Positions 4,325 through 30,256 of a stretch of DNA of 64,000 nucleotides are shown one piece after another. Source of the stretch: Clavaria fumosa (taxonomy: Eukaryota > Basidiomycota > Agaricomycetes > Agaricales > Clavariaceae); contig OX637805.1 of NCBI GenBank assembly GCA_951802425.1, forward strand, positions 124,001-188,000, written 5' to 3'. A program made the translations under genes and the position numbers. How positions within the stretch are numbered: position 1 is the first letter of the stretch; every line of letters begins with the position of its first letter. The notes beneath the pieces were generated by a model. That model saw only the letters and a list, made by a program, of their open reading frames with translations. It ran no database searches and was not told where the DNA came from.

Positions 4325-5190
4325 AAATGACTGGGAGACACTGATGAGGTCAGGTGAGTGGCTTTGTATTTGTTTAGGCCTTAAATATGTTGAGCAGGTC
4401 AGGTGAGTAGCTTTGTATTTGTTTAGGCCTCAAATATATTTGAGCAGGTCAGGTGAGTAGCTTTGTATTTGTTTAGGCCTTAAATATGTTGAGCAGGTCA
4501 GGTGAGTAGCTTTGTATTTGTTTAGGCCTCAAATATATTTGAGCCAGTCATGAGGTCAGGTGAGTAGCTTTGTATCTGTTTAGGCCTCAAATATATTTGA
4601 GCCAGTTATGAGGTCAGGTGAGTGGCTTTGTATTTGTTTAGGCTTTCAATATATTGAGCAGGTCAGGTGAGTAGCTTTGTATCTGTTTAGGCTTTAGATA
4701 TATTGAGCAGGTCAGGTGAGTAGCTTTGTATTTGTTTAGGCCTCAAATATATTTGAGCCAGTCATGAGGTCAGGTGAGTAGCTTTGTATTTGTTTAGGCC
4801 TCAAATATATTTGAGCCAGTCATGAGGTCAGGTGAGTAGCTTTGTATTTGTTTAGGCCTCAAATATATTTGAGCCAGTCATGAGGTCAGGTGAGTAGCTT
4901 TGTATCTGTTTAGGCCTCAAATATATTTGAGCCAGTCATGAGGTCAGGTGAGTAGCTTTGTATCTGTTTAGGCCTCAAATATATTTGAGCCAGTTATGAG
5001 GTCAGGTGAGTGGCTTTGTATTTGTTTAGGCTTTCAATATATTGAGCAGGTCAGGTGAGTAGCTTTGTATTTGTTTAGGCTTTAGATATATTGAGCAGGT
5101 CAGGTGAGTAGCTTTGTATTTGTTTAGGCCTCAAATATATTTGAGGCCTAAACAAATACAAAGCTACTCTATTTGAGCAGGTCAGGTAAG
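4325..5190. repeat. Minisatellite array, right arm
   Basis: Reverse complement of the left array, with the same long and short unit types but fewer copies (about sixteen against two dozen). The copy-number difference moves the apparent palindrome axis and shows that the arrays have changed length independently of the exon-bearing part of the arms. Confidence 0.9.
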
Positions 5191-7222
5191 TACATGAACA
5201 ATGTTCATGTTTATCATCATTTGGTCCAATCTTGATAACACACTCCCAGCACTCTCATACATACTGTCATGTCTCAAACCCAATTCCACTGCCTCCGTGA
5301 TATTCGAATCAATTCTTCTGTCCTAAAGTCTTACCCATGGCGAAATGGGTGCATTCATGAACCAGGACCTCTCCTTGCATGGGTAGAAAGCCACTGCCCA
5401 ACTGTACTTCCTTCTCCTGCACACAATCTCATCAAGGTGAGTGTTCAGGTTTACCAGCACAGTTACTGTCCTTGATAGTCTGTAGATGCTTGCACAAGAA
5501 ATAGATACAGTTGAAAATGAACCCCTGGCAGTTGACAAAGCAAATGCCTATGTCCTTGCCATTTTGATCCCTAGCCAAATCAGCCACACACCCATACCAT
5601 TAGAACAGGCCTACTTTGGTAAAATTATTCTTATGTACCAACTCCTTGATGTCCTCTTGTGGGTCCAAGACTGGCCTCCACATCCTGCTCTCCATCCCAC
5701 CCCCCGCTCTCACCCTCCAACTCTCTCACCCACTCTGGAGAGAATCCTCAAAAATCTTGAGAAATGGACTTCAATTGTCCCATCAACTGCCAACAGGGCT
5801 ATACAGCACCTTGTACATTCACCACATAATATTGCCCTTCCTGCCCCTCCTCTCATATCTGCCCTGCCTGCTCTTCCTGTGCTAGAGGCAAGCACTTCAA
5901 CAGTCCAGGACCTGGATGTGTGGGATGTGGATGTGGGGGATGTGGGGGATGCTGAGGAGCCTCGCAGGTTCAAGGCCACGATTTCAAACCTGCTCAAGGC
6001 ATCCCAGCATGCTATTCACCGCTCCACACATGATGTTTTAGAACAGTGGCATTCTGTAGCCTTTGCAGTCAGTGCATTTAGACCAGTGAGTGTTACTTTG
6101 GATATCACAGATCATAACTAATTCAATGTCAAGTCATACCTCAAGAGCCAGGGTCCACAAAGTGACCTACTCCACAGCCTTCATATGTGCATTTAGTTTT
6201 TAATATTCTTGAATTTCTGCTGACAATGAAAACCAGGCAGGCTGCAGATCACCAAGTTGCACTGCCTGCTGGTCTTACCAATGCAGCAGTGATAAGAAAC
6301 ATAATCCAATACACACAACTTGCCCTGGCGATCTCCCCTCTCATCCTCTTAGTGCCACGGAATAGTGCCTCACAGTCCATCAATAAAGAGCAGCTCTTTT
6401 TGGTGAGTTAAGCTTTTTATTATCCTTTTATGGGTTAATCTTTATGATTCATTGGCCCAGTTGGGACAGTCACTTGGTGGAAAGCCAAGTTCACTACTGG
6501 CTATAGAGAAAATGATGTGGAAGGCATTACTAAGATCATCATGTGGGATGGAGTACAAGGCTGAAGTTATTGAACTTCATGAGATGGGAGCAGCACTTGA
6601 GTGCAAAGGCAACATACCACAATTACAGGATTGGTTTGTTACACGTGAGCATGTTCCACATTTATCCAGAGTTCATCTACTCACTTCTTTGGTTCAGGTG
6701 ATATACCAGATGTATTATTCCCCCAAATTCAACCTGCACTTCTTCCTAATGAAGGGGAGATGCATGAGAATACAGGGGCAGCACCTCAGGAAGCACAAGA
6801 GGCACAGGAGACACAGTGAGTTGGCATTCTCAGGGAGGATGCCATTTAATCACTCTTCTATAGAGACATGGACATTTCTTCCCCACCACCACAGAATGAG
6901 CAGCAGACCCAGGAAGAAGAGACACAGCAGATGTCAGTCTGCAATTTCAGGGAGGATACAAGCTTACAAGCTAATCACACATCAATAGGGATGTGGACAC
7001 TTTTCACCCACCATCACAAGATGATGGGCAGACCCAAGAAGGGGCAGGGCCTCAGGAGACACAAGAGACACAGGAGACACAGTCAGTCTGCATTTTCAGG
7101 GAGGATATTGGCTAATCACACATCAATAGGGATATGGACATTTCCCACCCACTTCCACAGGACAAGGAGCAGACCCAAGAAGGGGCAGGGCCTCAGGAGA
7201 CACAAGAGACACAGGAGACACA
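4325..7222. repeat. Right arm of giant inverted repeat
   Basis: Mirror of 594-3905. It contains the minisatellite, then the first eight exons of the right-hand gene. Arm identity is high enough that the 200-codon exon 2 translates identically in both arms. Confidence 0.85.
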
Positions 7223-10200
7223 GTCAGTCTGCATTTTCAGGGAGGATATTGGCTAATCACACTCCAATAGAGATATAGACATGTTTCACCCACTGTCACA
7301 GGAAGAGTGTGCACAAAAGGAATGTTTTATGCTTGGTATGTTCTCACTTTGTCTTCCTTGCATGTGAGAACTAAGGGTAGCAATCTGGGTCCCAAATTAC
7401 CAATAGCTCCAACAGAGGATTCACCAGCCACTCCAACACCAGTGGCCCCAATCACTCCAGCAACCCCAGCTGCTCTAGAGACTACACCTCCAGCTACTCC
7501 AGTCACTCCAACAGCTCCAATGACTCCAGCAGCTCCAGCAGCTCTGGGTATAACAGCACCTCCAGCAACTTCATCTGCTCCAACCACTCCAGCAATTCCA
7601 GTGACCCCAGCTGCTAGGGATGTGAGACTCCCTCTACCCTCATCACCCACTTCAATGTCAAACTCCCCCTTGACAACATCATCTTCATCCCCTGAGCCAT
7701 CTCTTCAGAAATCACCTTCATTGCCAATAGCAGAACAAGGTCAGGACCAAGGTCTTGACAGTGAAATGGAAGTTGAGGATAATGATGAGGATGGCAAGGG
7801 GGAGGCTGAAATGGAGGATGAGGATGGTGAAGATGAGGTCTATCACAAAGGGGAGAGTGAAAAGGAGAGTCAAGGGGACAGTCAAGAGGAGAGTGGAGAG
7901 GAGGGGGAGGTTGAGGTTGAGGTTGAGGAGCCTTCACAGTCCAGGAAACCACAAACCCACCACCAGTCTAAAAATGAGCAGCAGCATCTGAAAAAAGGAA
8001 TGGCTAAACACAAGGGGACAAAGCAATACCCTATATATGTTGACTTGGAGGGTGATGTAAGTACTTTTCTGAATTGCTTTCTCTTTACATTAACAATTTT
8101 TAGCATTATACACGCAACACCCTTCTGGACAATGTGGATGATGAGGTCAAGGTGTGTGTTCATTAATAGCTCTTTTTACCTCTGATATATCGAGTTATCC
8201 ATAGTTGTCTGATGAGGAGATCATCTTCCAAGCTTATCTACCATGCCGTTGTAAGGACCATATGCGATCTAAACACGGAAACATGACAGATACCGATTAT
8301 CCGGATGTTTTGCGATCCAAAGAAATTACGTGCGATACGAACCGATAACGATCCGACACCGTCCGATAACCACCGATAGTATCCGATACATGTCCGATGT
8401 CGGACACTTCGGTCTTCAATCCCCCGTGACGATCACAGCCCACCGCTCTCACACACCGCCCACGCCTCTCTATTTCACCTCTCCAGCACGGTCAGCGCTC
8501 GACATACACACTATTCCATTCCCATTCCTTTATTTCATATACCATGCTGTAAATTTCATATTATGATCCCTTTCAACCATTCAATCGTTTAAACGTTTCA
8601 AACCCTTTGCAGTACCTTGTCCATTGTTCTTAGTACCCCTTTGCTGTACCAGCCCCACTTTCCTTCAGTTTATGAGCGGTCCGGACATTTGCTAGTTATC
8701 GGACATTTCATTCCTCCGAGCTACTCATTTCCCTTGTGATATAACTCCTTCATGTAACCCTTCACGCGACATGGCGCTGTTCCATGTGTTTTCCGGACAT
8801 TTCCGTACATTCCAATTTGCTGTACTTACAGAACTGTACTTAAGTACACTCCGGACCTCTCTGAAATACAGCTTTCTGAACCCCTTCTCTCTGTTAGAAA
8901 CCTCACCTAAGCTCACCCGTCGTCGCAACCTTCGATCCGCTGGCCTCCGTCGTTGCCGGCCCTTCGTCTTATCGCACCATCCTTATCGGATTTTATCGGA
9001 CACATAGCAGAATATCCCGGACACCGTATATTTCTATTTCTCACATATTTTGAATTCATACTCCACATCCTCAAGGGTGTTTGGTGAATCTCTAACGCCT
9101 TACAGGAACCCCTGAAGGACTTGACTGTAATCAAGCAGTTGCAGCAAGAACCGTAATACCCACTACAATTCTGGAGCCCACCGCGAGGGGTTCAACAAGA
9201 CGTCTTCACTACCACCCTCAAGGATTCCCAGAGGCTCATCCGCTCCTCAGCCTCGACGCTCCGAACGCCTGAGAAGTCGAAACCCGAATCCGATCACAGA
9301 ACCACCGCCCTCCGAACCCCCCGGAGAAGTAATTGAAACTTCCCACCTTCTTCCATCGGACATTCCCAGTATCTCATCCATTGTCTACTCCCACACGAGT
9401 TTCACCACTCCGGATCCCTCACTACCACAGACCTTCGAACAACCACACTCACCGCTTACACCACTTCCCCTTGAACCAGACATCCTTCATTTCCCGCCCG
9501 AAACACCTCAGAATTCACCAGACGAAGTTCACTCACCGCCCCACGCACCAATACAAATGGCCAACCAACCGAGATATCCGCTCCGTGGCGCCCACGGGGC
9601 CCCTGCCTTTGACGGAGTACCGACACACCTCAACCGGTACTTCGAGGACATCGACATCGTGCTCACCGGCGTCAACCCGGACGTTCCAGAACCCGATTTA
9701 ATTCGGTACGCCAAGCACTATCTCGACACCGATACGTGTCTCCTCTGGGAGACTCTTTCACCTGACCCGGACCCGGTATGGACGTGGGATACCTTCAAAG
9801 CGGCCGTCCGACGACTTTATCCAGGATCTGATGGAGGTCGCTTATTTTCCGTCGCCGACCTGGACCGTTTCATATCGGACTCGGCCCAAAAGGGAGTTTA
9901 CACGCGCGCAGAACACGGAGAATACTATCGGGACTTTCTCCGGATCACCTCGCACTTGATCACATCACAGCGTATGTCCACAAATGACAGGAACCGACTT
10001 TACATCCTCGGATTTGGGGATCATACAAGGCGTCGGATCGAAAGCCGACTCGCTATCATACTACCAAACCACCATCCGGAGGATCCTTACCCCATGAATG
10101 AAGTACATGGTGCAGCTGAATTTCTTCTCTCCTCGACGTCCCCCCACTCTGCGACAACCGATCAACTTTCCGGACCCGTCCGTCTCGCATCTTCAGCCCC

Positions 10201-13200
10201 CGGGAGAGAAACGAAACTGGTAGTCAAGAAGGAAGAATTTGATATGTCCGCAGCCTGGGCAACATTCGCTTCCACAATGGCTCGCCTGGAATCGATTTTG
10301 ACAGCCCAATCTCTCGAACCGGCAAGACACTCCGCTCCCCGGACAACGAACTCTCCCGCAGGCCGGACGTGTAATTTCTGTTCGGAAATAGGTCATTTTG
10401 TTAGTGCCTGTCCGAAGGCCCTCGAATACATTAAGTCCGGCAAATGTATACGGAACACAGAAGGCAGGATTTGTCTCCCCTCCGGACGATATTTGCCAGG
10501 CACTATCTCAGGGAACAACCTATCCGAGCGCTTCGACAAGTACTACGCTACATACCAATCCCAGAACACGCAACCGGCGACAACCGCGGTATTTGAAGCA
10601 CAGCCGATCGGACAATCCGCTCACCCCCCGGACATGGAAGACGATTCGGACGAGGAAGATGACGAGAATACCGTGTTGGAAAACATGGTCCGCACCTTTG
10701 CAAACGATGTCGCGAAGAAAGTAGACAAGGGCAAAAGGAAAGCACCCACACCCAGGAATACCGATCCTCAGCCATCTAGGTTACCGCCCCCACCCGCCGT
10801 TGTTATTACGCCGCCTCAGGTCACTCGTCCATCAAAGCCGGAGAAAATCGAACGACCCGACGTCCAGTACCATTACCAAGCTCCGATCGAAAATCCGGTA
10901 ACCGTTCAACAAGTATTCGATCGCGCACTCGACATGCCAGTCCGCGTCACACCTCGCGAACTACTCGCCATTTCCGGAGACATCCGCAAAAAGATGAAGG
11001 ATGTGGTTACCGCTCGTCGCGTTCCGGTCACCGCGTCCGTCGTACAGGATACGCTCTATACAAACATTACGGTCCCGGACACCTCCGATCTTGTTGTCGC
11101 CGTCGACGCTGCTCCGCTCCGCATCGTAGAAGGGATATTGGACAACCGGATCGCCGCGGAGTGCCTGCTCGACCAAGGCAGCTCAATCGTGGCAATGCGA
11201 AGAGACGTTTGGGAGAAACTCGGCAACCCACTACACTCCGAGAACGTTATTCACATGGAATCCTCTCATGGCACCATCGCTCCGACCCTCGGACTCATCA
11301 AGAATTTCCCCCTACAGATCGGTCCGTGCACATTCCATGTTCAAATGCAAGTAGCAGACACGTTGCCCTGCGAGGTTCTTGTCGGACGACCGTTTTTCAT
11401 GTTAACCGGTTCCCAAACGATTGACCATCCCCACGGGGCCCAGGACCTTATTCTCAACGATCCAAACACCGGAGAAAGAATCATAGTGCCAACGAAGGAG
11501 CGAATCCCGATCCGCAAATCCTTGAAGAACAAGAAACCGCATCCGGATTTTTGAGAGCTGGAGCCTCGAATGTCCGCAAACCAACGGACTTACCTCCGAT
11601 CAATGCGGACACGGAAGCTATACCCAGATACGAGACTCCAGCCATTTTTCCTACTTCCGTTCACGTTCCCTTATCGTTTTCCCTTATAAACCCAGTCTCT
11701 CTCGACCCCTTCCCCTGTATCAGTATCTCGGACGTTTCTCTCGATTCCGCTGATTCCCCAGTCGCTATCGGACGTGAACCGTCGCGTCCAAATGTTGCAA
11801 CCCCCTTGTACAACAAAACCCCCGAAATAAATTCCCTGTCTACGGACGCCGTTCTTCCAGTTTACTTGGGAAAGAAATATAAGAAAGTCGCGAATCGCGT
11901 CAATCCGATCAAAGCGACAGTACCCAAAGAATTCCGGATTGTCCGACGCCGACACCCGGACCCCCTAGCCGATATGCCAACTCTTCCGACCCATCCCCCC
12001 GATTTCACCCCCGGTCTTCGATACACTCAAAACCGGAAAGACACGCACAACGCCAACCCCACCGGATTCTTATGGCCGGAGGAAGAAAAACTCGTTCACC
12101 ATCTTATTAAAGCCCAGGAAGACGCCTTCGCTTGGAAAGAGACCGAAAAAGGACGATTCGACGCAAAATACTTCGATCCGATTATTATCCCGACAGTCGA
12201 ACATATCCCTTGGATCTTCAAAAATATACCGATTCCCCCCGGTATTTACGACGAAGTTCTCAAAGTAATCCGGGAAAAGATCGCAGCCGGCGTTTATGAA
12301 GAATCCAACTCTTCTTATCGGTCCCAGTGGTTTTGCGTGTTAAAGAAAGACGGAAAGTCTCTCCGACTCGTGCACAACCTCCAGCCGCTTAACAAAATCA
12401 CTATCGGCGATTCCGCGGTCCCCCCGATAATGGAGGTTTTTGCGGAATCATTCGCCGGACGCGGATGTTACGGATCACTCGACCTTTTCGTCTCCTTCGA
12501 TCAGCGGTCTCTGGACGAACGAAGCCGAGACCTCACCACGTTTCAAACCCCTCTCGGAGCAAAACGGCTCACCTGCGTCCCCATGGGATACACCAACGCA
12601 ACGCAGATTATGCATGGAGACGTCACGCATGTTCTACAAGATGAAATTCCGCACGTAACCATCCCATTTGTAGACGATGTAGCGATCAAGGGCCCGGAAA
12701 CCCGATACGAGCTTCCGGACGGCACCTACGAGACGATCCCTGAGAATCCGCAAATACGACGATTTGTTTGGGAGCATTTAAATAACGTCAACCGGGTGCT
12801 CCAACGAATCAAGAAAGTCGGAGGAACCTTTAACGGCAAGAAAACGACAATTTGCGTTCCCGAAGCAGTCGTTACCGGACATACGTGCACATACGAAGGA
12901 CGAGTTCCGGATGCCTCCAACGTTCAGCGTATCCGGGACTGGCCTCCTTGCAAAACCCTGACCGATGTCCGATCATTTTTAGGGGTTTGCGGACTACTCC
13001 GGATATTCATTAAAAACTACGCCGTACTTGCCCGACCTCTTGTCAGTCTAACTCGCAAGGACGTGCCATTCAGATTCGAAAAAGAAGAACAAAACTCGAT
13101 GGACCGACTCAAACACGCGATTCTGAACTCATCCGCCATCCGACCAATCGACTACCGCTCCGGACAACCCGTAATCCTCGCCGTCGACTCATCAAATATC

Positions 13201-15345
13201 GCCGTTGGTTTCGCACTCTTCCAAATTGGAGAAGATGGAATACGATATCCCTCCCGCTTTGGCTCCATTACCTGGAACGAACGCGAGGCCCGATACTCAC
13301 AAGCAAAAATCGAATTATACGGACTCTTCCGCGCACTTCGGTCGTACCGGATTTACCTTATAGGCCTTCCGAAATTTACTGTCGAAATGGACGCGAAGTT
13401 CATTAAGGGTATGCTAAACAATCCGGACATTCAACCCAACGCTGCCATGAATCGATGGATTGCCGGTATACTACTCTTCGATTTCGATCTTGTTCATATT
13501 CCCGCAGATAAGCACACCGGAGCCGACGGACTATCACGCCGACGTGCCGCAGATGGTGAAGAAGATACCGAGTCTGAAGATCACGAAGAATGGATCGATC
13601 GGAGCTACGTATTCGCCATGGAACACATGAATCGAGCACCGGACGCTTCCTACACATCCAAGACACGACTCGCCGGCATCACCCATACTCGCTTCAAAGT
13701 TTACACAGGATCGACGCTACTCAATTCGACGGTACCACCCGAGGAATCACCGACCCCGAACGAATCTTCCGCCGTCCTTATACCCCGATCCGATGCAGCA
13801 AACAAAAGAGAAGAACAGATTCGCAAAATTGAATCTTTCCTTCGAAACCCGATCCGTCCCTCCGGCATTGACGCAAACCAGTTCCGACGACTGGTCCGCT
13901 CCGCATCCGAGTTCTTCATCCTAGATGACAAATTATGGCGTCGCCGACCTAACGGATACCACCAAGTAGTACCTCCGGACCACAAACGTCTCGCAATTAT
14001 CACAGAGGCACACGATTCACTCGGCCACAAAGGCGTTTACGTTATCCGGACACGTATTCTAAATCGGTTCTGGTGGCCGGTGCTGGATCAAGACGTAAAA
14101 TGGTTTGTCAAAACTTGTCACCAATGCCAAACTCGGCAAATCCGGAAGATCTTCATTCCACCGACGGTCGCCACACCGGCCGGTCTTTTCCGTCGAGCGC
14201 ACATTGATACTATGTTCCTACCAAGAGCCCGCGGTTTCCGACTTCTCGTCCACGCCCGATGCTCGTTATCCGCATATCCGGAAGCAAGACCGCTACGAAA
14301 CGAGACCGCCCGACTTCTCGGAACCTTCATATTCGAAGATATACTATGCCGATGGGGAGCAGTAGAAGAGATTATCACGGATAACGGAGCCCCATTTATC
14401 AAAGCCCTCGATTTCCTTAAGAAACGGTACGGAATCCATCACATCCGTATATCCGGATACAACTCCCGCGCTAACGGCGTCATCGAACGTGCCCATCGAT
14501 CGGTCCGTGAGTCGTTAATCAAAGCAGCAGATGGAGACGAATCGAAATGGCCGGACGTTTTACCCTCAGTCATTTGGGCAGAACGAACCACGATCCAACG
14601 GTCCACCGGCCACTCCCCATTTTACATCGCACATGGCGTCGAACCGCTTTTCCCCTTCGACATATCCGAAGCAACATATTTAATTCCGACCGCCGACGCC
14701 CCGATGACCACTCCGGAACTGATAGCCCTTCGTGCCCGCCAACTGCAAAAACGAGAAGAAGATCTAGCAACAATCGCCGATAAAGTGCTCGCTGCCCGCA
14801 AACAATCCGTCAAGCAGTTCATCGACGCACACCGGAAGTCTATTATCGACTACGACTTCCAACCCGGATCGTTGGTATTGATCCGCAATTCGGCCGTTGA
14901 AATGGAATTAAATCGAAAAACAAAACCGCGATTCTTCGGACCGATGATCGTCGTTCGCCGAACACAATATGGCGCCTATATTCTCTCGGAACTCGACGGC
15001 GCCGTTTCCAAAATCCACTACGCAGCTTTCCGCATCATTCCCTACTATCCGAGGTCGCAAACATCGATTCCGGTCACTTCTATCATCGACCAAACGACGG
15101 AGATAAACGAGGACATCTCTCCCTATCAAATACACGAGGCGTCACCCAACTCTATCGACAGAGAAGATGAGCAAAACCAAGCGGCTGACCTATCCGATGA
15201 ATCCGATAATGAAACCACCGACGACGACACTGCAGAAACTCGTCCGCAACGCTCCGGAGCAACCCGGAACCTTCGGCCTCGCCATTAAGTATTTTTTCTC
15301 CATCATATCCTTCATTTTTCTATACTTCACATTGATTCACACCTT

Positions 15346-15382
<37 letters not shown>

Positions 15383-18300
15383 GAAATTTCGGACAAGTCC
15401 AAACTTTATACCCGACGTTCTTTCAACCATTTTCTCACATTCTCACATTCCTCACTTATCCCACACGACATACCATACCAAATAGAAAAAGAAAAACATA
15501 TATAAAAACAAAAACAAAATATTTACTTAGAGGACGACTCGCCAAGGAGGAGCATCCGGAGCAGCTCCGCTCCGGCCTTCACCTGGTCCGCCCCCCTCTC
15601 CATCATCTCCAGCGCCCTATCGAGCGCCTCCCTCCCGGACACCCCTCGCGCCACCTCCCGCTCCTTACCCTTCCGACTTGGTCCCGCCTCCGCCTTCTTC
15701 TTCTTTGCCGGCGGCTCCTCCACCAGCTCCACACTGGTATCCTCCTCAATCTCGTCCTCCTCCTCCGGCGTCGTCTCCTCGCGAACCGGTACCCGCGTCG
15801 CACCTCGCCTCGGCCTCTTACTTCCGCTCGCTCCCGCCGCCTTCGGACCTGTTCCGATACGTTAGCAAATGCGGACCCGATACCTTCTCGACATACCTTC
15901 CGTTCCGGACACCGCCGCTCTCTCTGTTTTCGCTCCTGAAACACACCTATCATTTGTCTCATCATGAAAAATAAAAAGAATACCACTTACCTCGCACAGC
16001 CGACAGACTGCACGATACCTTATACGTCCGGCACCACCGGCACGCTATCCCCTCCACTCCGTAGCACGCCCGCCACTTCCGGGTGCACTCCTTGCACCCC
16101 GGAACGTGCTCCTAATCATTATATCAGACGTCGAAAAAGCCTCACATATCTTAATTAACCACTCACCTTATCTCCAGGCTGCCGCGCAGCCCGGGACTCT
16201 ATGTCGCTCTTCGCCCCGCCTCTCCTCCCTCGCCCTCGCTCCGCTGCCTTCCGCCTCGCGATCTCCACCCACACCGGAGTCGCCATCATCCGCGCACCGT
16301 CCCGGTGCACGAACATCGGCTCCTCCACCGACTGCTCGCCTCCCCCGGCCACCGCACTCACCGCCGCCGCCTCGATAACACCGACGGGCGTCACCCCGTC
16401 GGTTCCCCACACGGTCCGATGACCGTCCGGATCCTCCCCTGCCGCCACCTCGTCCACACGCAGCTCTCCGGCGTCCGGTGATATCGTCGTCGTTGTTACC
16501 GCCGCTGCACCGGACTCCGCCGCTCCCGTCGTCGTCGTTGTTGCCGCCGCCGCCGCCTCGCCCTCGTCGTCGCTGTCACTTACGACAATTAAGCGCGCCC
16601 GGGCAAGGCGCGCCCTCTTCTCGGCAGCCCTCGCCGCCTCCGCCCGCCTCTCCTCCGCCTCCGCCTCTGCTGCGGCCCGCTCAGTAGCCGCCCTCTCCTC
16701 GCTCGTGCGCTGTTTCTCGGCCTCGACCTCCTCCCGCCTTCTCGTCCGCTCAGCGGACCACTCGTCCCCGCGGAGCTTCCGCCACTTCTTGAGCCTTCGC
16801 GCGACCCGGACGAGTCCCTCGTCCACCTCCACGTCGTCGTCGATCGCTGCCACATATCCGGCAAGAAAATCGTCCTAAAAACGTTGTCAGTGCGATACAA
16901 AAAAAAAAAGTACGAAAGATTCTCGTTCACGCACCGCGTCACCCGCATACGTCCCCACCCACTCCGCGCACTCTCCATCCTGCCCCCGATCCGGCAACTC
17001 CTCGCCCGGCGCCATGGCCTGCGCCTCGGTCATCGCCTGGACTGCGTTTCGAAAGATTGAAGAATCGAAGTTTTCCATTGTCGGAGAGTTGACGTGTTGC
17101 TGTCGCTGGAGAAAACACAAGGGTGTGTTTGGACCTATGTGCACCCACACGACGCGTACTTCACGATCAACAAACCGTTATTTGGCCTTGTTTGGTTGCA
17201 ACCGAGGGCGGTTGCATTTTCAGCCCCCGGGAGAATGTAAGGACCATATGCGATCTAAACACGGAAACATGACAGATACCGACTATCCGGATGTTTTGCG
17301 ATCCAAAGAAATTACGTGCGATACGAACCGATAACGATCCGACACCGTCCGATAACCACCGATAGTATCCGATACATGTCCGATGTCGGACACTTCGGTC
17401 TTCAATCCCCCGTGACGATCACAGCCCACCGCTCTCACACACCGCCCACGCCTCTCTATTTCACCTCTCCAGCACGGTCAGCGCTCGACATACACACTAT
17501 TCCATTCCCATTCCTTTATTTCATATACCATGCTGTAAATTTCATATTATGATCCCTTTCAACCATTCAATCGTTTAAACGTTTCAAACCCTTTGCAGTA
17601 CCTTGTCCATTGTTCTTAGTACCCCTTTGCTGTACCAGCCCCACTTTCCTTCAGTTTATGAGCGGTCCGGACATTTGCTAGTTATCGGACATTTCATTCC
17701 TCCGAGCTACTCATTTCCCTTGTGATATAACTCCTTCATGTAACCCTTCACGCGACATGGCGCTGTTCCATGTGTTTTCCGGACATTTCCGTACATTCCA
17801 ATTTGCTGTACTTACAGAACTGTACTTAAGTACACTCCGGACCTCTCTGAAATACAGCTTTCTGAACCCCTTCTCTCTGTTAGAAACCTCACCTAAGCTC
17901 ACCCGTCGTCGCAACCTTCGATCCGCTGGCCTCCGTCGTTGCCGGCCCTTCGTCTTATCGCACCATCCTTATCGGATTTTATCGGACACATAGCAGAATA
18001 TCCCGGACACCGTATATTTCTATTTCTCACATATTTTGAATTCATACTCCACATCCTCAAGGGTGTTTGGTGAATCTCTAACGCCTTACAGGAACCCCTG
18101 AAGGACTTGACTGTAATCAAGCAGTTGCAGCAAGAACCGTAATACCCACTACACCGTGATGCACTGCCCATTGAGGTGCACTTCCAAACTGCTGAAAATG
18201 CAGTAAGTACATCTATATTTGAAATATTATTAGATGCTAATGGACATTACAAAGACTGAGATTGAGTATCCAATTATAAGAAAGCTCCAACAGAGTATTG

Positions 18301-20152
18301 AGGCTAGATACATTGATGGCCACCCACCCCATCATCACATATCTGCTTGGGAGCAGGGATATGATCACAAATGTCCTCCCCCCTCCAGCATCTTTGTCTG
18401 TAACTTTGAGGAGTTCAACAGGCTATCAGCACAGGAGATCCAGCAAATATTCCACCATCGGCATATCTTGGTGCTCAAAGTACCATTACATGATGAGGGA
18501 TTCACTCTGAACACCCTCAAAATGTATGCAAATGTTCACAGAACAGTGGACATGGTTGGTAAGTGGATTGTTCCTTATTTGAACCAAGATTCTTACCATT
18601 GAGTGCAGATATGAGCCTCCCAATGACAGGAAAAGGACTACGTCACAGCCAGGGGACACTTGTGGACTTTTATGCACAAAGCCAAGTTACTGGGATGGGT
18701 CGGATCCTCAATGTGTTGGATCTCCCTCTGGGTATTGAATATCGGCAAGCTTTACCATATCAGTATGTAGCTGATTCCTTGCTTGCTTTCTAAGCTGAAA
18801 AATAATACTCTAGTCACCTGTACTCTCATGGAGTGGCATGGCAACAAACAAGGGGACTGCCTGGTTTTACACAGGACAACCCCCCCACAGATCACCTTAT
18901 ATGGGCCACAGCAGCCATGAAAAATGCAACAACTGCATTTCATATTGATGGTAAGGGATTTGGGACAATTGTGGATAGCATTACAGGCACAAAGTATTGG
19001 GTGGTTGGCAGACAGAAAAGGGATTGCATGACACAGGGGCAAGATGGTGACATGGCATCTATGTATGGGGTTGAGTGGACAAGAGATGGTGGTGTCCCAC
19101 CTTGCTTTGAATATGAAGCTGTGGTTCTCCAGGCTGGGACAGTCTTGTGAGTCATGTCTCCATTTAGTAAGATTTGTTTTCACATCCTTTCTCTCAGCTT
19201 CATGAGACCAAACACACCTCACTTAGTTGTGACAGTTGAGAACTCAGTAACCCTGGGCCGCCACATGTTCACCACAACCACCATTCGTGACACCTGCTGG
19301 GCACATATCCACTCTGGGATGTTGCTCTACAACATTACCAACACACTTCAGTATGAAGCTGACATCTTCCTTCGACGAATGCTGGCAATGGCCATTGTAG
19401 AGTATACGGAATTAAAGGGTGAGTTTCTATTTGCTTTGCTTTCAAGTCTCATCTTTTTCTTTTTGCCAGGACAAAACCAGTCTCTCACAACTTCAGCACA
19501 CTCATTCAATGTCCTGACCATGACTGGTTTGTTGGATGTTGTCACCCTGGCCAATGTATTGGAGCTTAGTGTGGTCTATGACCCCCGAGCATATACTGCA
19601 GAAGGGATTCCTGAACTGGAAGCAGCCCAAAGAGCTAAGTTGGTCCAGACCTGGAGTAACTTCCAAGATGACTTCTGCAAGAGATACCGACTGAAGACAG
19701 GGGACAAGTATCAGAGTCCTAGGGGAATAATCTTCAATCTCACACTGTTGAAATTGGCTCTGGGACTCTGCAAGTACAAGGAACTGCACCCAAAGGCCAA
19801 TCCATCTTTCAAGTTGTTGGCCTTCCAGAACAAAATGATGGAGCATTTTAGAAAGCATCGGCCTGATCTGTTGACACCACTGACTAATCACATGAAGAGT
19901 GGTGTCTCAGACATTCCATATGATGTCAAAACTTTTGACTGGACAGGTGGTGAATTCTCTGTAGTCCCATTGAGTGAATGTCCCCCAGCTGATGAAGACC
20001 AGTCAGTTGGTGAGTTGTTTCATTGTTGGTTTCCCATTCCCTTTGAATTATTTATTTATTTTAACCTAGGCCCTGCAGGTCTCAAACGTGCCCTCAATCG
20101 TGCCATGCATGATGTCTATGTTGAGGTGGTGAAGCGGCCAAGGAGAAGTTGA
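5269..20152 (+). CDS. JmjC-domain protein gene, interrupted by retrotransposon A
   Basis: Predicted exons: 5269-5436, 5486-6085, 6178-6402, 6461-6644, 6698-6815, 6864-6932, 6989-7081, 7130-7222, 7271-7335, 7416-8056, 8104-8151, 8205-8249, then element A, then 18158-18202, 18234-18558, 18609-18762, 18814-19146, 19198-19418, 19470-20009 and 20070-20152. They sum to 4050 nt with every junction in phase (1349 aa plus stop). The N-terminal third is unrecognised. It is followed by four Q/E/T-rich modules, a Pro/Thr/Ala-rich then acidic linker, and a C-terminal JmjC double-stranded beta-helix domain. The likely Fe(II) ligands are H1001 and D1003 in TTAFHIDGKGFG and H1077 in MRPNTPHLVVTVEN. JmjC proteins are 2-oxoglutarate-dependent dioxygenases, often histone demethylases; the substrate here is unknown. 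Only the insertion breaks the gene. The retained frame suggests the allele was functional until recently. Confidence 0.75.
6864..7335 (+). repeat. Tandemly duplicated exon-intron modules
   Basis: Exons 6-9 of the JmjC gene are copies of one unit. Exons 7 and 8 are each exactly 93 bp, separated by a 48-bp intron beginning GTCAGTCTGC and ending CAATAG, so the repeat period is 141 bp. All have phase-2 boundaries, so adding or losing a unit keeps the frame. The peptide unit begins like DMDISHPLPQ and ends QETQETQETQ. Mirror copies are in the left arm. Confidence 0.75.
8250..9167 (+). repeat. 5' LTR of element A
   Basis: Begins TGTAAGGACC and ends CCCACTACA. Matches 17236-18153 at a constant offset of 8986. 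No gene inside; the short open frames in it occur identically in the other LTR. Confidence 0.95.
9172..9190 (+). promoter_or_regulatory. Candidate primer binding site of element A
   Basis: Four bases after the LTR comes TGGAGCCCACCGCGAGGGG, then TTCAA. Its reverse complement ends in CCA and carries a TTGAACC T-loop-like stretch, as the 3' end of a tRNA would. The tRNA is not identified. Inferred from position and form. Confidence 0.55.
9557..11554 (+). CDS. Gag-protease polyprotein of element A
   Basis: 665 aa. The N-terminal part is a retrotransposon capsid-like region. A CCHC zinc knuckle of form CX2CX4HX4C lies at about residues 272-285 (CNFCSEIGHFVSAC). An acidic linker follows, then a retropepsin-like aspartic protease. 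The catalytic motif is LLDQGSSI at about residues 537-544, with DQG where DTG or DSG is usual. The protein packages element RNA and processes the polyproteins in the cytoplasm. The frame ends in TTTTTGA, directly overlapping the pol frame in -1, so expression of pol probably uses a frameshift or reinitiation. The start codon is the first in-frame ATG after the PBS; an upstream start is possible. Confidence 0.85.
   Translation: MANQPRYPLRGAHGAPAFDGVPTHLNRYFEDIDIVLTGVNPDVPEPDLIRYAKHYLDTDTCLLWETLSPDPDPVWTWDTFKAAVRRLYPGSDGGRLFSVADLDRFISDSAQKGVYTRAEHGEYYRDFLRITSHLITSQRMSTNDRNRLYILGFGDHTRRRIESRLAIILPNHHPEDPYPMNEVHGAAEFLLSSTSPHSATTDQLSGPVRLASSAPGRETKLVVKKEEFDMSAAWATFASTMARLESILTAQSLEPARHSAPRTTNSPAGRTCNFCSEIGHFVSACPKALEYIKSGKCIRNTEGRICLPSGRYLPGTISGNNLSERFDKYYATYQSQNTQPATTAVFEAQPIGQSAHPPDMEDDSDEEDDENTVLENMVRTFANDVAKKVDKGKRKAPTPRNTDPQPSRLPPPPAVVITPPQVTRPSKPEKIERPDVQYHYQAPIENPVTVQQVFDRALDMPVRVTPRELLAISGDIRKKMKDVVTARRVPVTASVVQDTLYTNITVPDTSDLVVAVDAAPLRIVEGILDNRIAAECLLDQGSSIVAMRRDVWEKLGNPLHSENVIHMESSHGTIAPTLGLIKNFPLQIGPCTFHVQMQVADTLPCEVLVGRPFFMLTGSQTIDHPHGAQDLILNDPNTGERIIVPTKERIPIRKSLKNKKPHPDF
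11551..15288 (+). CDS. Pol polyprotein of element A (RT, RNase H, integrase)
   Basis: 1245 codons open, beginning in the -1 frame at the gag stop (TTG at 11551, so probably not an independent start). Order: linker, reverse transcriptase with FVDD in place of the usual YxDD (about residues 373-376), RNase H (LAVDSSNIAVGFALF), HHCC zinc-binding domain (HDSLGHKG ... CHQC), integrase catalytic core with D886, D944 (TDNGAPF) and E979 (the last two 35 residues apart, as in DD35E), and a C-terminal GPF-type domain (KPRFFGPMIVV). No chromodomain follows. All key acidic residues are present and there is no internal stop, so it may be active. Confidence 0.88.
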   Translation: MRAGASNVRKPTDLPPINADTEAIPRYETPAIFPTSVHVPLSFSLINPVSLDPFPCISISDVSLDSADSPVAIGREPSRPNVATPLYNKTPEINSLSTDAVLPVYLGKKYKKVANRVNPIKATVPKEFRIVRRRHPDPLADMPTLPTHPPDFTPGLRYTQNRKDTHNANPTGFLWPEEEKLVHHLIKAQEDAFAWKETEKGRFDAKYFDPIIIPTVEHIPWIFKNIPIPPGIYDEVLKVIREKIAAGVYEESNSSYRSQWFCVLKKDGKSLRLVHNLQPLNKITIGDSAVPPIMEVFAESFAGRGCYGSLDLFVSFDQRSLDERSRDLTTFQTPLGAKRLTCVPMGYTNATQIMHGDVTHVLQDEIPHVTIPFVDDVAIKGPETRYELPDGTYETIPENPQIRRFVWEHLNNVNRVLQRIKKVGGTFNGKKTTICVPEAVVTGHTCTYEGRVPDASNVQRIRDWPPCKTLTDVRSFLGVCGLLRIFIKNYAVLARPLVSLTRKDVPFRFEKEEQNSMDRLKHAILNSSAIRPIDYRSGQPVILAVDSSNIAVGFALFQIGEDGIRYPSRFGSITWNEREARYSQAKIELYGLFRALRSYRIYLIGLPKFTVEMDAKFIKGMLNNPDIQPNAAMNRWIAGILLFDFDLVHIPADKHTGADGLSRRRAADGEEDTESEDHEEWIDRSYVFAMEHMNRAPDASYTSKTRLAGITHTRFKVYTGSTLLNSTVPPEESPTPNESSAVLIPRSDAANKREEQIRKIESFLRNPIRPSGIDANQFRRLVRSASEFFILDDKLWRRRPNGYHQVVPPDHKRLAIITEAHDSLGHKGVYVIRTRILNRFWWPVLDQDVKWFVKTCHQCQTRQIRKIFIPPTVATPAGLFRRAHIDTMFLPRARGFRLLVHARCSLSAYPEARPLRNETARLLGTFIFEDILCRWGAVEEIITDNGAPFIKALDFLKKRYGIHHIRISGYNSRANGVIERAHRSVRESLIKAADGDESKWPDVLPSVIWAERTTIQRSTGHSPFYIAHGVEPLFPFDISEATYLIPTADAPMTTPELIALRARQLQKREEDLATIADKVLAARKQSVKQFIDAHRKSIIDYDFQPGSLVLIRNSAVEMELNRKTKPRFFGPMIVVRRTQYGAYILSELDGAVSKIHYAAFRIIPYYPRSQTSIPVTSIIDQTTEINEDISPYQIHEASPNSIDREDEQNQAADLSDESDNETTDDDTAETRPQRSGATRNLRPRH
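15347..15380. repeat. Run of 34 A
   Basis: Uninterrupted A tract between the pol stop (15288) and the end of the convergent antisense gene (15523). The older copy B has no comparable run at this place. Confidence 0.95.
15523..17078 (-). CDS. Antisense Zn(II)2Cys6 accessory gene of element A
   Basis: Five predicted minus-strand exons: 17078-16935, 16874-16167, 16111-15991, 15935-15897 and 15848-15523. They sum to 1338 nt (445 aa plus stop) and every junction keeps phase. The N-terminus starts MENFDSSIFRNAVQAM. The second exon is a long Arg/Glu/Ala-rich coiled coil. The third holds C-KE-C-TRKWRA-C-YGVEGIA-C-RW-C-RTYKVS-C (16096-16010), i.e. CX2CX6CX7CX2CX6C, exactly the fungal GAL4-type binuclear zinc cluster. 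The C-terminus has a basic patch (SKRPRRG) and PPAKKKKAEAG, likely nuclear localisation signals. The gene starts 158 bp inside the 3' LTR and converges on pol. Copy B keeps the same exon lengths and cysteines. A nuclear DNA- or chromatin-binding role is inferred, not shown. Confidence 0.72.
17236..18153 (+). repeat. 3' LTR of element A
   Basis: Same ends and length (918 bp) as the 5' LTR. It is followed at once by the second CCGT and the resumed JmjC exon. Confidence 0.95.
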
Positions 20153-20432
20153 TTTGGTTCTTTGTTCGTACTGATACCACTTCTAACAAGCCATTTGGAG
20201 CCCCTCCCCTTCCCCTATTTTGCTTTACATGTTGACCCCCATGTCATTTAATTATCTGGTTACAAAATGCCCAGATCACTTGGTATTGAACCCATTCAGT
20301 CACAGACATGGTGCAGATATAGCTGTTCTTTTATGTGGGAAAGTGTGCTGTTCTTTTACATGCCAGTTAGCAGTCCTGTACAAATCAATTATATAATACA
20401 GTACACTTTTTCTTAATGCATACTGTTACATT
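20153..20432. other. 3' flank of the JmjC gene
   Basis: AT-rich sequence after the stop codon, up to an LTR. No gene seen. Confidence 0.5.
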
Positions 20433-21238
20433 TGTTACATTAGATAATCTGCCTTCATCATAAAGGCTTAGGGCAAGCCCTCAGCAAACTGGTAATGATA
20501 ACAGTAACAAATATCAAGTACTAAGTCAGTGTTGGTGTCATGCAGCAGAGTAGTTAGCAGAGCAGAGATATATAGATAAGAGTCCAATGTCAGATGAATG
20601 GAAAAGAGATAGCATAAGCAGAAACTTATGGGACTATGGCCTCAATGTATGTGTTGTGCTGCCACATATATACATGTCCCTATTTGTCAGACAGAAACAA
20701 CACCAAAGAAGAAGATCAAAAACAGAAGTCAAACTCCAAATTCTGTTGGAGTCTGCCAGAGTTACTCAGAGTTGGTTGGATGACATGGAGAATGTCAAGG
20801 ACAATGAGGATGAAAGCTCAGGGATGTTTGGAGCCAAGAGATGTTAATATTTGAACTGGAGAACAGGGAAATACAGGTAGGATCTTATACTGTAAGGACA
20901 GGAGTATAGGAGTACTTCAAACATAGTATATATCAACTTACTAGGAGAGTTTCACCACATGTGCCTGTGCAATTTTCTTGGAACAAAGAAACAACAACAA
21001 AAGATGATTCCCATGGGTCATGGGCATCCTCCCATTGGTGGACAGAATGAGGGGATGAGGGGAGAAGGTTCTAGAACAAAGTATGAAAGGTCTGAAGGAC
21101 AGTGGAATGGAGTCCAAGGAAGGTGCAGAGCAGAGCGTGTGGAGTTACAGAGGAGTGGATCAGAGATGGCTGGAGTTGGTATGGAGTCTGGAGTCCAGAG
21201 CAGGGATTGTGCTTATGTGATCAGATGGGGTTGTAACA
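20433..21238 (-). repeat. 3' LTR of chromovirus fragment E
   Basis: The unit begins TGTTACATTAG and ends TTGTAACA on the plus strand. Directly outside, read on the minus strand, is a purine tract AAGAGGGGGA followed by TAC and the LTR start, as expected of a polypurine tract. No matching 5' LTR is present in the window. Confidence 0.65.
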
Positions 21239-21440
21239 GTATCCCCCTCTTAGGGTCAAACCCCTGAGACCCTCTAGCCAAAGTCCACATGAACACATGT
21301 CTCCCATAATGAGTTAGTCTTGGAGTTTCGTGGCATGTCAAGCAGAGTCTGAAAATATTTTGGGGCTCAAAAGGCCATGTGCATCACACTCCTTTTTTCT
21401 TTTCTTCCTTAACCCACTACCACCATCACTAGCCCCTAGC

Positions 21441-22246
<806 letters not shown>

Positions 22247-22700
22247 AATTAAACTTAAAATTATTTTACATACTTATTTATCTTCTTATAAAATTTTCTT
22301 TTATTCTTTGAGCTTGAGTGAAAGTAAGTGGAGTGAAAGGAAAATAAGTAAAGCAAAATGGACTAAGTGAAGAAGAAGAATCAGAGTCAGACTTGAGAAA
22401 AACAAAAGTTTCAGAGTTTTTCAGAGAAGAAGAAGTAAGATTTTTTTTTTGAGTTTCATACAAAATGGAGCAAGGAGACAGAGAGACAAGTGACAGAGAG
22501 ACAGATTTTTTTTTTGTTTCAGAGAAGGGGTGGAGTGATATAGAAAGGAAATGTACATAAGTAGAAAAATATATAAGAATTTCAGGGTATCAGAGTAAGC
22601 AGAGTAAGGTTTAAAGGGAGTTGAGAGGTCTGGCTTGTTCAGATAAGTGTGATGGAAGTCTGACACAGCCTTGGAGGCATGTATAAGTTCTGTAGCTGGT

Positions 22701-26849: not shown

Positions 26850-28640
26850 TGTAGTAGGCTGTACTGGTGTTGGCTGCAAATGGGTGTTCATGGCCAGGTT
26901 CTTCAGGGGGTCTTGTTACACATCAGAGACACTAGACAGAACCTTGGAGGATGTAGAGGCTGAGTGTAAAATGTTCAGAGAATGAAAATATATGTTATCC
27001 GAAGTATCCAGTATCAGATCCAGTGGAGTCCGATGTTCAGATCGAAAGTTCGAGGGGCCGGCAATGATGAAGGCCAGTGGATCAATGGGTATGACGAGGG
27101 GTGAGCCTGCTAAAGATCACAGCACAATGTGGGCATTCAAAAAGCTGGATTTCCATAGAGTCTGGTACATACTTATGTACATTTTTCTAAGTACAGCAAA
27201 TCTGATCCTACGAAAATCTCTGGAAGCTACAGAAGGCAATGCAATATCATGTACAAGGTCATATAGGGGCCATAATTCATAAATGAGTCATGCGGTGTAG
27301 TAGGCTGTACTGGTGTTGGCTGCAAACAAGTGTTCATGGCCTGGTTCTTCAGGGGGTCTTGTTACACGACGTAGACACTAGACAGAACCTTGGAGGAAGT
27401 AGAGACTGAGTATAAAATGTTCAGAGAATGAAAATATATGTTATCCAAAGTATCCGGTATCGGATCCAGTGGAGTCCGATGTTCGGATCGAAGGTTCAAG
27501 GGGCCGGCAACGACAAAGGCTAGTGGATCAATGGGTATGACGAAGGGTGAGCCTGCTAAAGATCCCAGTGCAATATGGGCGTCTAGAAAGCTGGATTTCC
27601 ATAGAGTCTGGTACATACTTATGTACAATTTTTCTAAGTACAGCAAATCCGATCCTACAGAAATCTCTGGAAGCTACAGAAGGCAATGCGGTATTGTGCA
27701 CAGGGTCATATAAGGGCCATAATTCATAAGTGAGTCGGAGGGATGAAATGTCCGATAACTAGCATATGTCTGGACCACTCATAAAATGAAGGAAAGTGTG
27801 GCTGGTACAGCAAAGGGGTACTAGGAACAATGGGCAAAGCACTGCAAAGGGTTGAAATGTTTAAATAATTGGATGGTTGAAAGGGATCACAATATGAAAT
27901 TTACAGCATGGTATGTGAAATAAAGGAAGGGGAATGAAATAGTGAGTATGTCGAGTGCTGACCATGTTGGAGTGATGAAATAGAGAGGTGTGGGCGGTGT
28001 GTATGACCTGCGGGCTGTGATCATCATGGCAGACTGGAGACCGGAGAGTCCGATATTGGATGTTTATCAGATGTCCCGGATGTTATCAGACAGTATCGGA
28101 TCGTTATCGGTCGCTGTTGCCTTTGATGCCTAAATATCCAGATAGTCAGTATCTGTGATGTTTCCTTGTCTAAACCGCATATCATCCTTACAGCGGTTTG
28201 GAGGAATCAAATGTCCGATGACCAGCACATGTCTGGACCGCTCGTAAAATGAAGGAAAGCATAGCTGGTACAGCAAAGGGGTACTAGGAACAATGGGCAA
28301 GATACTGCAAAGGGTTTGAAATGTTTAAACTAGTGGACACTTGAAAGGGAGCACAATATGAAATTTACAGCATGGTATATGAAATAAAGGAAGGGGAATG
28401 GAACAGCAAGTATGTCGAGCACTGACCATGCTGGAGTGATGAAATAGAAGGGTGTAGACAGTGCGTGTGACCTGCAGGCTGTGATCATCATGGGGGACTG
28501 GAGACCGGAGAGTCTGATATCAGACATTTATCGGACGTCCCAGACGCTATCGGTCGCTGTTGCCTTTGATGCGAAAAATATCTGGATAGTCGGTATCTGT
28601 GATGCTTCCTTGTTTAAACTGTATATTATCCTTCCATTCT
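26850..28640 (-). repeat. 3' LTR of element B, split by a solo LTR
   Basis: An A-family LTR in minus orientation. Its two halves are 26850-27291 and 28197-28640, separated by the nested LTR 27296-28192 with its GCGG duplications. The outer end begins TGTAGTAGG. The inner end, next to a GGGGGCTGAAAATGCAACC sequence shared with element A, has lost the terminal bases (CTTCCA for CTTACA). Confidence 0.75.
27296..28192 (-). mobile_element. Solo LTR nested in the LTR of element B
   Basis: 897 bp, TGTAGTAGG ... ATCCTTACA, flanked by GCGG (27292-27295 and 28193-28196). Removing it and one GCGG restores a continuous LTR of B. Confidence 0.8.
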
Positions 28641-28794
28641 CCTGGGGGCTGAAAATGCAACCGTCCTCGATTGCAACCAAACAAAGCCAAATAATCGTTT
28701 ATTGATTGTGAAGTATGTGTTGTGTGGGCGCGCATGGGTCCAAACAGGCTCTTGTGCTTTCTCCATCAACAGCAATATGTCAACTTATTCAACA

Positions 28795-30256
28795 ATGGAA
28801 AACTTCGATTCCCTACTCTTCCAAAATGCGGTCCAGGCGATGATAGAGGCACGGGCCATGGCGCTGGGTGAAGAATTACCGGAACAGGGGCAGGATGGTG
28901 AGTACGCAGAGTGGGTGCAGATGTATGGGGGCGATGCTGTGCATGGTGTATCTTTCTTTCTTTTTCACATTGCACTGACAATTTATGGAATGATTTTCTT
29001 GCCGGCTACATTGCTGCAATTGATGATGACGTGGAAGTGGACGAAGGACTCATCCTCGTTGTGCGAAAGCTCAAGAAGTGGCGGAGGCTCTGCGGGGACG
29101 AATGGACTGCCGAGCAGGCGAGGAAACAGGAGGAGGCCGAGGCCGAAAAGAGACGCACGAGCGAGGAGAGGGCGGCCGCCGAGAGAGCCGCAGCGGAGGA
29201 GAGGCGGACGGAGGCGGCGAGGGCTGCCGAGAAGAGGGCGCAACTCGCCCGGGCGCATCGGATTGTCGGGAGCGAGGACGGTGAGGAAGAGGAGAGGGGG
29301 GTGCAGCAGCAGCAGCAACAGCAACAGCAACAACAACAATACCAGCAACAGTTGTGCCGGCCGTGACGGATCTGACGGAGGCGGTGGAGCTGGGCGTAAA
29401 TGAAGAAACGGATCCGTGGGGGCAGTCAGTGCGGGAGCCGGGGGGTCATCACCTAGTCATCAAGGTCCCCCCATTCTGGAGCATCGGGTGTGCGGGCGGA
29501 TGACGGTGACGCCGGTATGGGTTGAGATTGCGAGGGGGGCAGCAGAGAAACGAGGGCGAGGGAGGAGGACCGGAGCGGGAGCGGACATCAGGTCCCGAGC
29601 TGCATGGCAACCTGGAGACAAGGTGAGTTGTCAAATGGGGTTTTTTTGAGCCTTAGGTCTCTGATCCGGAAAATAGGAACACAAGCCGGCCTGCGAAGCG
29701 TGCGCCCGGAAGCGGCGCTCATGTTACGGAGTGGAAGGAGTGGCATGTCAGTGGTGTCGGACCTACAAGGTGTCGTGCAGTCTCTCGGCTGTACGAGGTA
29801 AGTAATATTCTTTTTATTTCGGTGTTGAAATAATCTGAAAGGTATGTTTCAGGAATGAAAGCCGAGAGGGTGGCGGTGTCCGGCACCGGAGGTAAGTCAA
29901 GAAAATATCGGATCCGCATTAGCTAATGTATCGGAGCAGGTCTGAAGGTGATGGAGGCAACTGGGAGCAAGAGGCCGAGGCGGGGTGCGACGCGGGCACC
30001 AGTCCGTGAAGATACGACCCCAGAGGAGGAGGAAGAAGACGAGATTGAGGATGATGATAGCGTGGAGATGGTGGAGCCGCCAGCAAAGCGAAAGAAAGTG
30101 GAGGTGGGTCCGAGTCGGAAAGGTAAGGAGCGGGAGACGGTGGCAGGGTCGTCTATGAGGGAGGCGCTCCAGATGATGGAAAGGGGGGCTGATCAGGTGA
30201 AGGCCAGAGCCGAGTTGCTCTGGATGCTTCTCCTTGGTGAGCTGTTTACTGTATAA
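28795..30256 (+). pseudogene. Zn(II)2Cys6 accessory gene of element B, decayed
   Basis: Counterpart of the antisense gene in A. Start MENFDSLLFQNAVQAM; coiled-coil exon from about 29000 (DDDVEVDEGLILVVRKLKKW); zinc-cluster exon 29677-29797 with C-EA-C-ARKRRS-C-YGVEGVA-C-QW-C-RTYKVS-C; small exon 29853-29891; last exon 29940-30256 (SKRPRRGATRAPVRED, PPAKRKKVEVG). The exon sizes of 121 and 39 bp equal those in A. It is broken: the acceptor before exon 2 has lost its AG, a CAG/CAA-type repeat expands the coiled coil, and a frame change precedes the WVEIARG segment. Confidence 0.7.

Follow-up and report, generated by a model that had tools for sequence, protein, structure and literature searches.

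A long-kept antisense gene with introns and a six-cysteine cluster in a fungal Ty3/gypsy lineage enriched in CGGA-type words

The intron-bearing gene that lies antisense between pol and the 3′ LTR of a young Ty3/gypsy element (LTRs one base apart; positions 8250-18153 of the window, the 64,000-nucleotide stretch of Clavaria fumosa DNA analysed here) is a long-kept accessory gene of its lineage and not a one-off capture. Its spliced-type architecture, its fixed antisense position and the purifying selection acting on it are established computationally. Judged from its sequence, the product is probably a zinc-cluster DNA-binding protein, and the element is enriched in CCGGA. CGG is the triplet that GAL4-type (Zn2Cys6) proteins read, so CGGA/CCGGA is a word of the kind that zinc-cluster proteins recognise. 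For the antisense protein we infer a zinc-cluster fold, nuclear location, dimerisation and CGGA binding, with anti-silencing as the outcome. The reading that we prefer, and hold at about even confidence, is that of a self-addressed, probably dimerising nuclear zinc-cluster regulator that binds CGGA words along its own element, most likely as an anti-silencer.

Structure of the element and its antisense gene

The features of the element are collected in Table 1. The single LTR mismatch (1 of 918 bp) is a T at 8297 and a C at 17283, and the target-site duplication was read directly. The pol domains follow the order RT, RNase H, integrase, as in Ty3/gypsy: the RT match (pol residues 265-445, 28.0 bits) falls just under the Pfam cut-off of 29.6, RNase H matches at residues 510-638 and the integrase zinc-binding domain at 808-864, and the integrase core is weak (rve_3, 13.3 bits). 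A Pfam profile search returned no chromodomain match in the element's pol. The end of gag and the start of pol, in another frame, meet at GGATTTTTGA (window 11540-11560), and because this junction is identical in all five relatives compared (L032, L050, L051, L052 and L054), a frameshift or restart site is likely there. A run of 34 A residues separates the pol stop from the antisense stop (window 15347-15380), and the spacer upstream of the antisense ATG is probably the antisense promoter and 5′ UTR.

The first-pass annotation had proposed a five-exon antisense gene at this position, and the model held on re-examination: the exons join in phase into 445 codons and a stop, across four introns that all begin with GT and end with AG.

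Table 1. Coordinates of the element, its antisense gene and related pol copies (window positions unless a contig is given)
Feature	Coordinates	Strand	Remarks
5′ LTR	8250-9167	+	TG...CA, 918 bp; identical to 3′ LTR bar one base
3′ LTR	17236-18153	+	918 bp; pairs with 8250-9167
Target-site duplication	8246-8249 (left), 18154-18157 (right)		CCGT, 4 bp
gag and protease region	9557-11554	+	665-aa ORF; CCHC knuckle and aspartyl protease both sub-threshold
pol (RT, RNase H, integrase)	11551-15288	+	frame differs from gag
Antisense accessory gene	15523-17078	-	five exons, 445 aa; ATG 17078, stop 15523; between pol and 3′ LTR
Exon 1	16935-17078	-	144 nt; conserved N-terminal region
Intron 1	16875-16934	-	60 nt, GT..AG
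Exon 2	16167-16874	-	708 nt; conserved region; Glu/Ala/Arg-rich stretch; variable acidic/Ala-Thr stretch
Intron 2	16112-16166	-	55 nt, GT..AG
Exon 3	15991-16111	-	121 nt; zinc cluster
CX2CX6CX7CX2CX6C	16010-16096	-	within exon 3
Intron 3	15936-15990	-	55 nt, GT..AG
Exon 4	15897-15935	-	39 nt
Intron 4	15849-15896	-	48 nt, GT..AG
Exon 5	15523-15848	-	326 nt; KRPRR and KKKK basic patches, acidic stretch, conserved C-terminal segment
Spacer	17079-17235	-	157 bp, upstream of antisense ATG; polypurine tract at LTR end; matched in 19/19 loci
CGGA/CCGGA motif field	8250-17235	both	99 CCGGA vs 37.1 expected
Related pol copies with TGA stops	C1:187509, C4:138620, C4:4407122, C5:136641, C7:43485, C10:3294763, C11:2607485, C12:154458, C13:1878396

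Evidence for a probable zinc-cluster product

Zn(II)2Cys6 proteins follow the spacing rule CX2CX6CX5-16CX2CX6-8C. The exact CX2CX6CX7CX2CX6C spacing claimed for exon 3 is present in the window; the six cysteines are kept in all 18 loci aligned and also in L047, with a spacing that falls within this rule in each. The identification of the cluster as Zn(II)2Cys6 stands in part: the cysteine spacing supports it, but the Pfam Zn_clus profile reached only 10.8-16.1 bits, against a cut-off of 21, in each of five cluster sequences. The whole 445-aa protein gave no Zn_clus hit and no Pfam domain at its cut-off, and the fungal transcription factor middle domain was not found in it by Pfam. A predicted fold model of the cluster, compared with the GAL4-like fold, was poor, and a cluster profile set against five known domains aligned over 14 columns only (probability 29.5, E 6e-4). 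Searching PDB sequences produced zero zinc-cluster hits, and scans of viral contigs found no relatives of the antisense protein. Basic patches and a coiled coil had also been described around the cluster; the patches (KRPRR and KKKK) are there in exon 5, while the Glu/Ala/Arg-rich stretch of exon 2 looks coiled-coil-like as judged by eye only.

Maintenance of the gene across the lineage

A DNA search of the genome (48.76 Mb, 17 contigs) with the gene gave at least 43 matches, of which 36 span the full query with 93-100% identity, and a protein search gave 171 matches, with identity down to 54% among the matches listed. Of 25 near-identical loci examined, 24 cover the gene and represent 18 distinct places, window included. 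Each of the 18 has an open frame and four GT..AG introns, so that 18 of the 22 close copies examined are intact; the four damaged ones are a partial copy (L015), one with a broken frame (L009) and two with deletions (L048 and L049).

Nineteen relatives were fetched (L009, L010, L026 and L029-L044), and in all of them the gene lies antisense to pol or gag remains with the same spacer adjoining. An LTR match follows beyond the spacer in 18 of the 19, the exception being L032. Outside L009, local identity of the spacer is 79-93% (18 loci); 17 of these loci also have an LTR match, and the longest in each is 68-83% identical. L032 is a deletion copy in which gag and the start of pol run straight into antisense exons 1-2, the remainder being missing. 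Introns and cysteines were aligned over 18 loci, namely L009, a damaged close copy, and 17 others that are divergent; all four introns are GT..AG at homologous places in 17 of the 18, and in L037 the fourth acceptor was unaligned. Because introns, frame and cysteines recur in relatives, the gene model is more than chance.

The pattern of divergence is that of a protein-coding sequence under constraint. Compared with five open relatives, the window copy differs by 0.107-0.223 at codon position 1 and by 0.115-0.225 at position 2, about 0.4-0.5 of the 0.268-0.432 at position 3, and the introns diverge by 0.265-0.445, about equal to position 3. For the same comparisons dN/dS, for which a value near 1 had been named as evidence against the gene, was 0.24-0.29, and it was 0.24-0.49 over all 15 pairs of the six open copies. 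Nor is the gene absent from other family members, the other outcome that had been expected to count against it: it recurs in relatives. Gene distances correlate with those of pol (r 0.805, 0 of 2000 permutations).

Of the pol C-terminal places, 132 in all, at least 86 are followed within 3 kb by a listed gene copy, which in 85 cases is on the opposite strand. This is a lower bound, because the window's second element, L047, L048 and L049, all among the other 46, carry the gene whole or in part. The gene copies of L048 and L049, whose pol is near-identical, are those with deletions, and the distant L047 has the gene with in-frame stops. The notion that the gene is truly absent at the 46 places was rejected, since the window's second element, which is one of them, has gene remnants. 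At the most distant gypsy pol places (L045 and L046, 43% identity), no gene copy was found in the 6 kb read.

Relatives of exon 2 (P0001-P0006) and of exon 5 (P0007-P0014) were found in ENA and JGI records of other genomes. Five of the six exon-2 relatives pass the homologous GDK, and in all five V-S comes next; P0005 stops before that point. GDK-VS is what read-through of a GTGAGT or GTAAGT donor would encode, which suggests that intron 2 may be kept in these relatives too.

CGGA-type words along the element

CCGGA ranks first of all 512 5-mers in the element against the dinucleotide expectation (Table 1) and occurs in all three reading frames; it is missing from the 234-bp gap between pol and the gene (15289-15522) and from the 157-bp spacer. 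It ranked first under a shuffle of synonymous codons both in pol (1 of 506) and in the antisense gene (1 of 291), and third in gag (3 of 476). Under a stricter null, a synonymous-codon shuffle in which the dinucleotides at codon junctions were also held (174 samples), CCGGA still stood at 44 vs 21.9 in pol (0/174), 19 vs 10.2 in the antisense gene (0/174) and 24 vs 14.7 in gag (2/174). CCGGC and CCGGT did not stand out under this null; the enrichment is word-specific. It is modest in the pol of L054 (20 vs 13.1, 6/200 samples). The decayed second element of the window has the same top word (37 vs 14.2). Direct CGGA pairs 10 bp apart are also in excess in the window element (11 vs 2.9-3.0), and the top pair spacing is 10 or 21 bp, roughly one and two helical turns, in L034, L054, L010 and L044, though not in the second clade described below; this spacing is a hint only, because those elements share ancestry.

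According to the preferred model, the antisense protein would be nuclear and dimerising and would recognise CGGA-type words. The words accumulated over the LTRs and the coding sequence would allow it to coat the DNA of its own element, and the bound protein would keep the element open to transcription against host silencing, in the manner of VANC but on a retrotransposon, VANDALs being DNA transposons. The spread of the motif, in the LTR as well as in coding sequence and on either strand, favours binding all along the element DNA over binding at a promoter only.

This distribution also bears on a classical LTR activator, a protein that binds sites in U3 and switches on gag-pol as a retroviral transactivator does. 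TCCGA is enriched in U3 (94 vs 16.1 pooled over 19 LTRs, which are not independent of one another), and the everted sequence GTCCGA-TG-TCGGAC occurs once per LTR (8392 and 17378) and, allowing up to two mismatches, nowhere else in the window (0.24 expected). However, the enrichment extends beyond U3: per kb, the LTR has 9.8 CCGGA, gag-pol 11.9 and the antisense gene 12.2, and we regard such an activator as possible but unlikely. A U3-specific enrichment of TCCGA had been a candidate finding, and it was demoted once a control by tiles revealed that CGG words are in excess over most of the element's length.

Alternatively, the motif field could be a response to a host CGG-binding factor or the result of mutational bias, and the antisense protein could do something else. 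The connection between protein and motif is one that we infer, and the element lies amid CpG-poor DNA, from which its composition differs sharply; both leave room for this explanation. Host DNA, however, has no overall enrichment: CCGGA was counted at 18 vs 23.1 in the CpG-rich host tiles of the window (14 kb) and at 36 vs 36.7 pooled over five random 6-kb host stretches (30 kb), so that motif density in the element's own family is high compared with both. One of the random stretches, the CpG-poor L056, has 4 CCGGA vs 0.1 expected and counts against this contrast. Given that the enrichment is word-specific and survives codon and dinucleotide nulls, and that the element itself encodes a candidate CGG-reader, a host factor or bias seems rather improbable.

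A second clade with another cluster and other words

Three second-clade elements (L031/L050, L036/L051 and L047/L052) share the cluster CDAC[VI][RW]KGR[EK]CY[GR]LEGVAC. Under the stricter null, their pol sequences are enriched in TCCGA and CCGAT (0-1/174) and not in CCGGA, and each of them has an excess of the core CGGA (0/174); by the simpler shuffle, CGGA in the pol of L052 ranked only 16 (16/200). Per 2.4 kb of pol, 0-4 of 20-25 CCGGA sites are common to both clades, and since this sharing is at or below the 5-mer background, CCGGA sites have turned over between them. The favoured pol word thus differs between the clades, though not cleanly, and the difference amounts to one evolutionary event. 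CCGGA is still raised in the gag of L051 (13 vs 7.2, 5/200) and L052 (12 vs 5.6, 2/200) and, against dinucleotides, in whole second-clade loci (47 vs 25.4, 42 vs 26.8 and 27 vs 13.7); CCGAT is slightly above expectation in the window pol (27 vs 20.1, 6/174), and L041, which has the first type of cluster, shows 13 CCGAT vs 5.8 and 4 CCGGA vs 4.1 at its pol end.

A bolder proposal, which we put forward tentatively and think doubtful, is that the lineage would have rewritten its own genome, down to synonymous sites in gag and pol, as a dense self-address label by which the element escapes CpG methylation, read by the antisense intron-bearing DNA-binding gene of the lineage, with label and reader co-diverging between clades.

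The clade difference also weighs on the idea that the protein acts on element cDNA in the pre-integration complex, aiding nuclear entry or target choice. The basic patches of exon 5 would suit this role, as would a motif found on either strand over most of the DNA copy, and the antisense protein GENE23 of plants is reported to be nuclear (PMC7264820). Binding to cDNA alone, however, would not explain why the favoured word differs from clade to clade, and we consider this role improbable.

CpG content and decay of inserted copies

The ratio of observed to expected CpG is 1.21-1.53 in the element and 0.61-1.43 in relatives with the gene; two gypsy relatives for which no gene copy was listed stand at 0.04-0.11. 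Values in between (0.53 and 0.59) belong to a further gypsy pol, that of L046 and L049, so elements without the gene are not CpG-poor as a rule. When the window was divided into 32 tiles of 2 kb, 11 fell at 0.00-0.17. Extreme depletion (0.00-0.18) is seen at window positions 1-8000, 18001-22000, 36001-44000 and 48001-52000, beside CpG-rich tiles, and two of the five random host stretches are CpG-poor as well (0.04 and 0.33).

Singleton changes were counted in 18 close copies, L024 being the most diverged of them. CpG transitions make up 34 of the 76, yet CpG accounts for only 34% of the C/G bases. This excess indicates that inserted copies decay as methylated DNA does. It follows that they are not fully shielded, and any protection is incomplete; at the same time, the persistence of a CpG-containing motif above chance despite CpG decay argues for selection on the motif.

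The same motif data could be produced by a self-limiting repressor, which would cover the element and keep its copy number down, and copy-number control could itself be under purifying selection. With at least 36 full-length gene copies at 93-100% identity the family is a successful one, and selfish repression would be hard to maintain, which makes a repressor very improbable. That the antisense RNA alone matters, through dsRNA or transcriptional interference and with the open frame incidental, is scarcely credible: the layout does imply transcription convergent with gag-pol, but the codon-position pattern, dN/dS and the kept splice sites and cysteines disfavour it.

Relation to known systems

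Antisense accessory genes are already known from plants and from Boty; the one described here is a variant with introns, a probable zinc cluster and a motif field. For plants, genes in this antisense position, downstream of pol and before the 3′ LTR, have been described (PMC11963269, PMC7264820), and those of the Tat/Retand elements (Grande gene23, RIRE2 and Retand TRP28) have the same place and orientation as the present gene, are kept in most copies and have been suggested to have a nuclear or DNA-binding role (PMC7264820, PMC11963269). Unlike the Retand type, the gene described here has no TRP28 domain (Pfam), and it has a six-cysteine cluster and four kept introns; the word "intron" is absent from the main texts of PMC7264820 and PMC11963269 on the plant ORFs.

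The first-pass annotation knew of no fungal element with this gene. As regards a zinc-cluster gene this agrees with our literature search, which was partly aimed at that question and with most subscription journals outside its coverage: no Zn2Cys6 gene in a retrotransposon was among the matches listed. As regards an antisense gene in a fungal element it needs qualifying, because such a gene is known in Boty. According to secondary sources, Boty, or BcGypsy1, is a Ty3/gypsy element of Botrytis cinerea and Sclerotinia with an extra antisense gene, brtn (PMC7264820, PMC8365987, PMC4227169). It is likened to the present element by description only, and its gag-pol has a chromodomain (PMC4227169), whereas Pfam finds none here.

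VANC proteins of Arabidopsis bind family-specific motifs and remove methylation from their own VANDAL elements (PMC5735166). The likeness lies in a short motif enriched in the protein's own family and differing between related families. VANC motifs, however, are mainly in noncoding tandem repeats (same source), whereas CCGGA runs over LTR, gag, pol and antisense gene; this noncoding tandem placement counts against a VANC-like reading of the present system.

With fungal Zn(II)2Cys6 (GAL4-type) transcription factors the antisense protein has in common the cysteine spacing, basic residues between the second and third cysteines, a CGG-type word and a coiled-coil-like stretch (by eye), which here is N-terminal to the cluster. 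Unlike them, it is borne by a retrotransposon, scores below the Zn_clus cut-off and has no transcription factor middle domain. HBZ, a regulator of the retrovirus HTLV-1, differs from a zinc cluster in its type of DNA binding. HBZ is likewise the product of an antisense regulator gene of a retroelement (PMC11963269), and bdelloid rotifer elements are reported to express extra ORFs from spliced messages (PMC5408684).

These observations touch the question of what lets LTR retrotransposons persist despite methylation by the host genome. If the preferred model is true, an antisense regulator and an address motif in coding sequence would make up a self/non-self recognition system of a retroelement, with a short reader/target pair, and would hint at a reason for the repeated appearance of antisense accessory genes in plants and in fungi. 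Apart from any mechanism, the data indicate that the antisense intron-bearing Ty3 gene is real and under selection, and genes of this sort are easily missed by transposon annotation.

Other features of the window and genome

The second, decayed element of the same lineage lies in opposite orientation at window 26850-35676, with pol and gag pieces, the spacer at 28637-28785 and antisense-gene remnants at 28929-30214 (plus strand); a family LTR piece (33965-34780) is found inside its pol. The window also has an inverted repeat (510-3481 / 4335-7306) with arms of 2972 nt, 99% complementary and 853 nt apart, each carrying matching ORFs of 211 and 178 aa.

Nine related pol copies of 80-81% identity, the window's second element among them, have three TGA stops each and lie about 40-300 kb from contig ends (Table 1). 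Six of them share one score, and other pol copies of similar identity lie internally on contigs.

At L045 4455-5435, about 4 kb from a CpG-poor gypsy pol, two ORFs together resemble, by eye, a further zinc-cluster protein, with six cysteines and a tail rich in Glu and Lys. The antisense gene may, again as judged by eye, have come from a host family of such proteins. A window ORF at 21633-22370 has a tail similar to this Glu/Lys-rich one.
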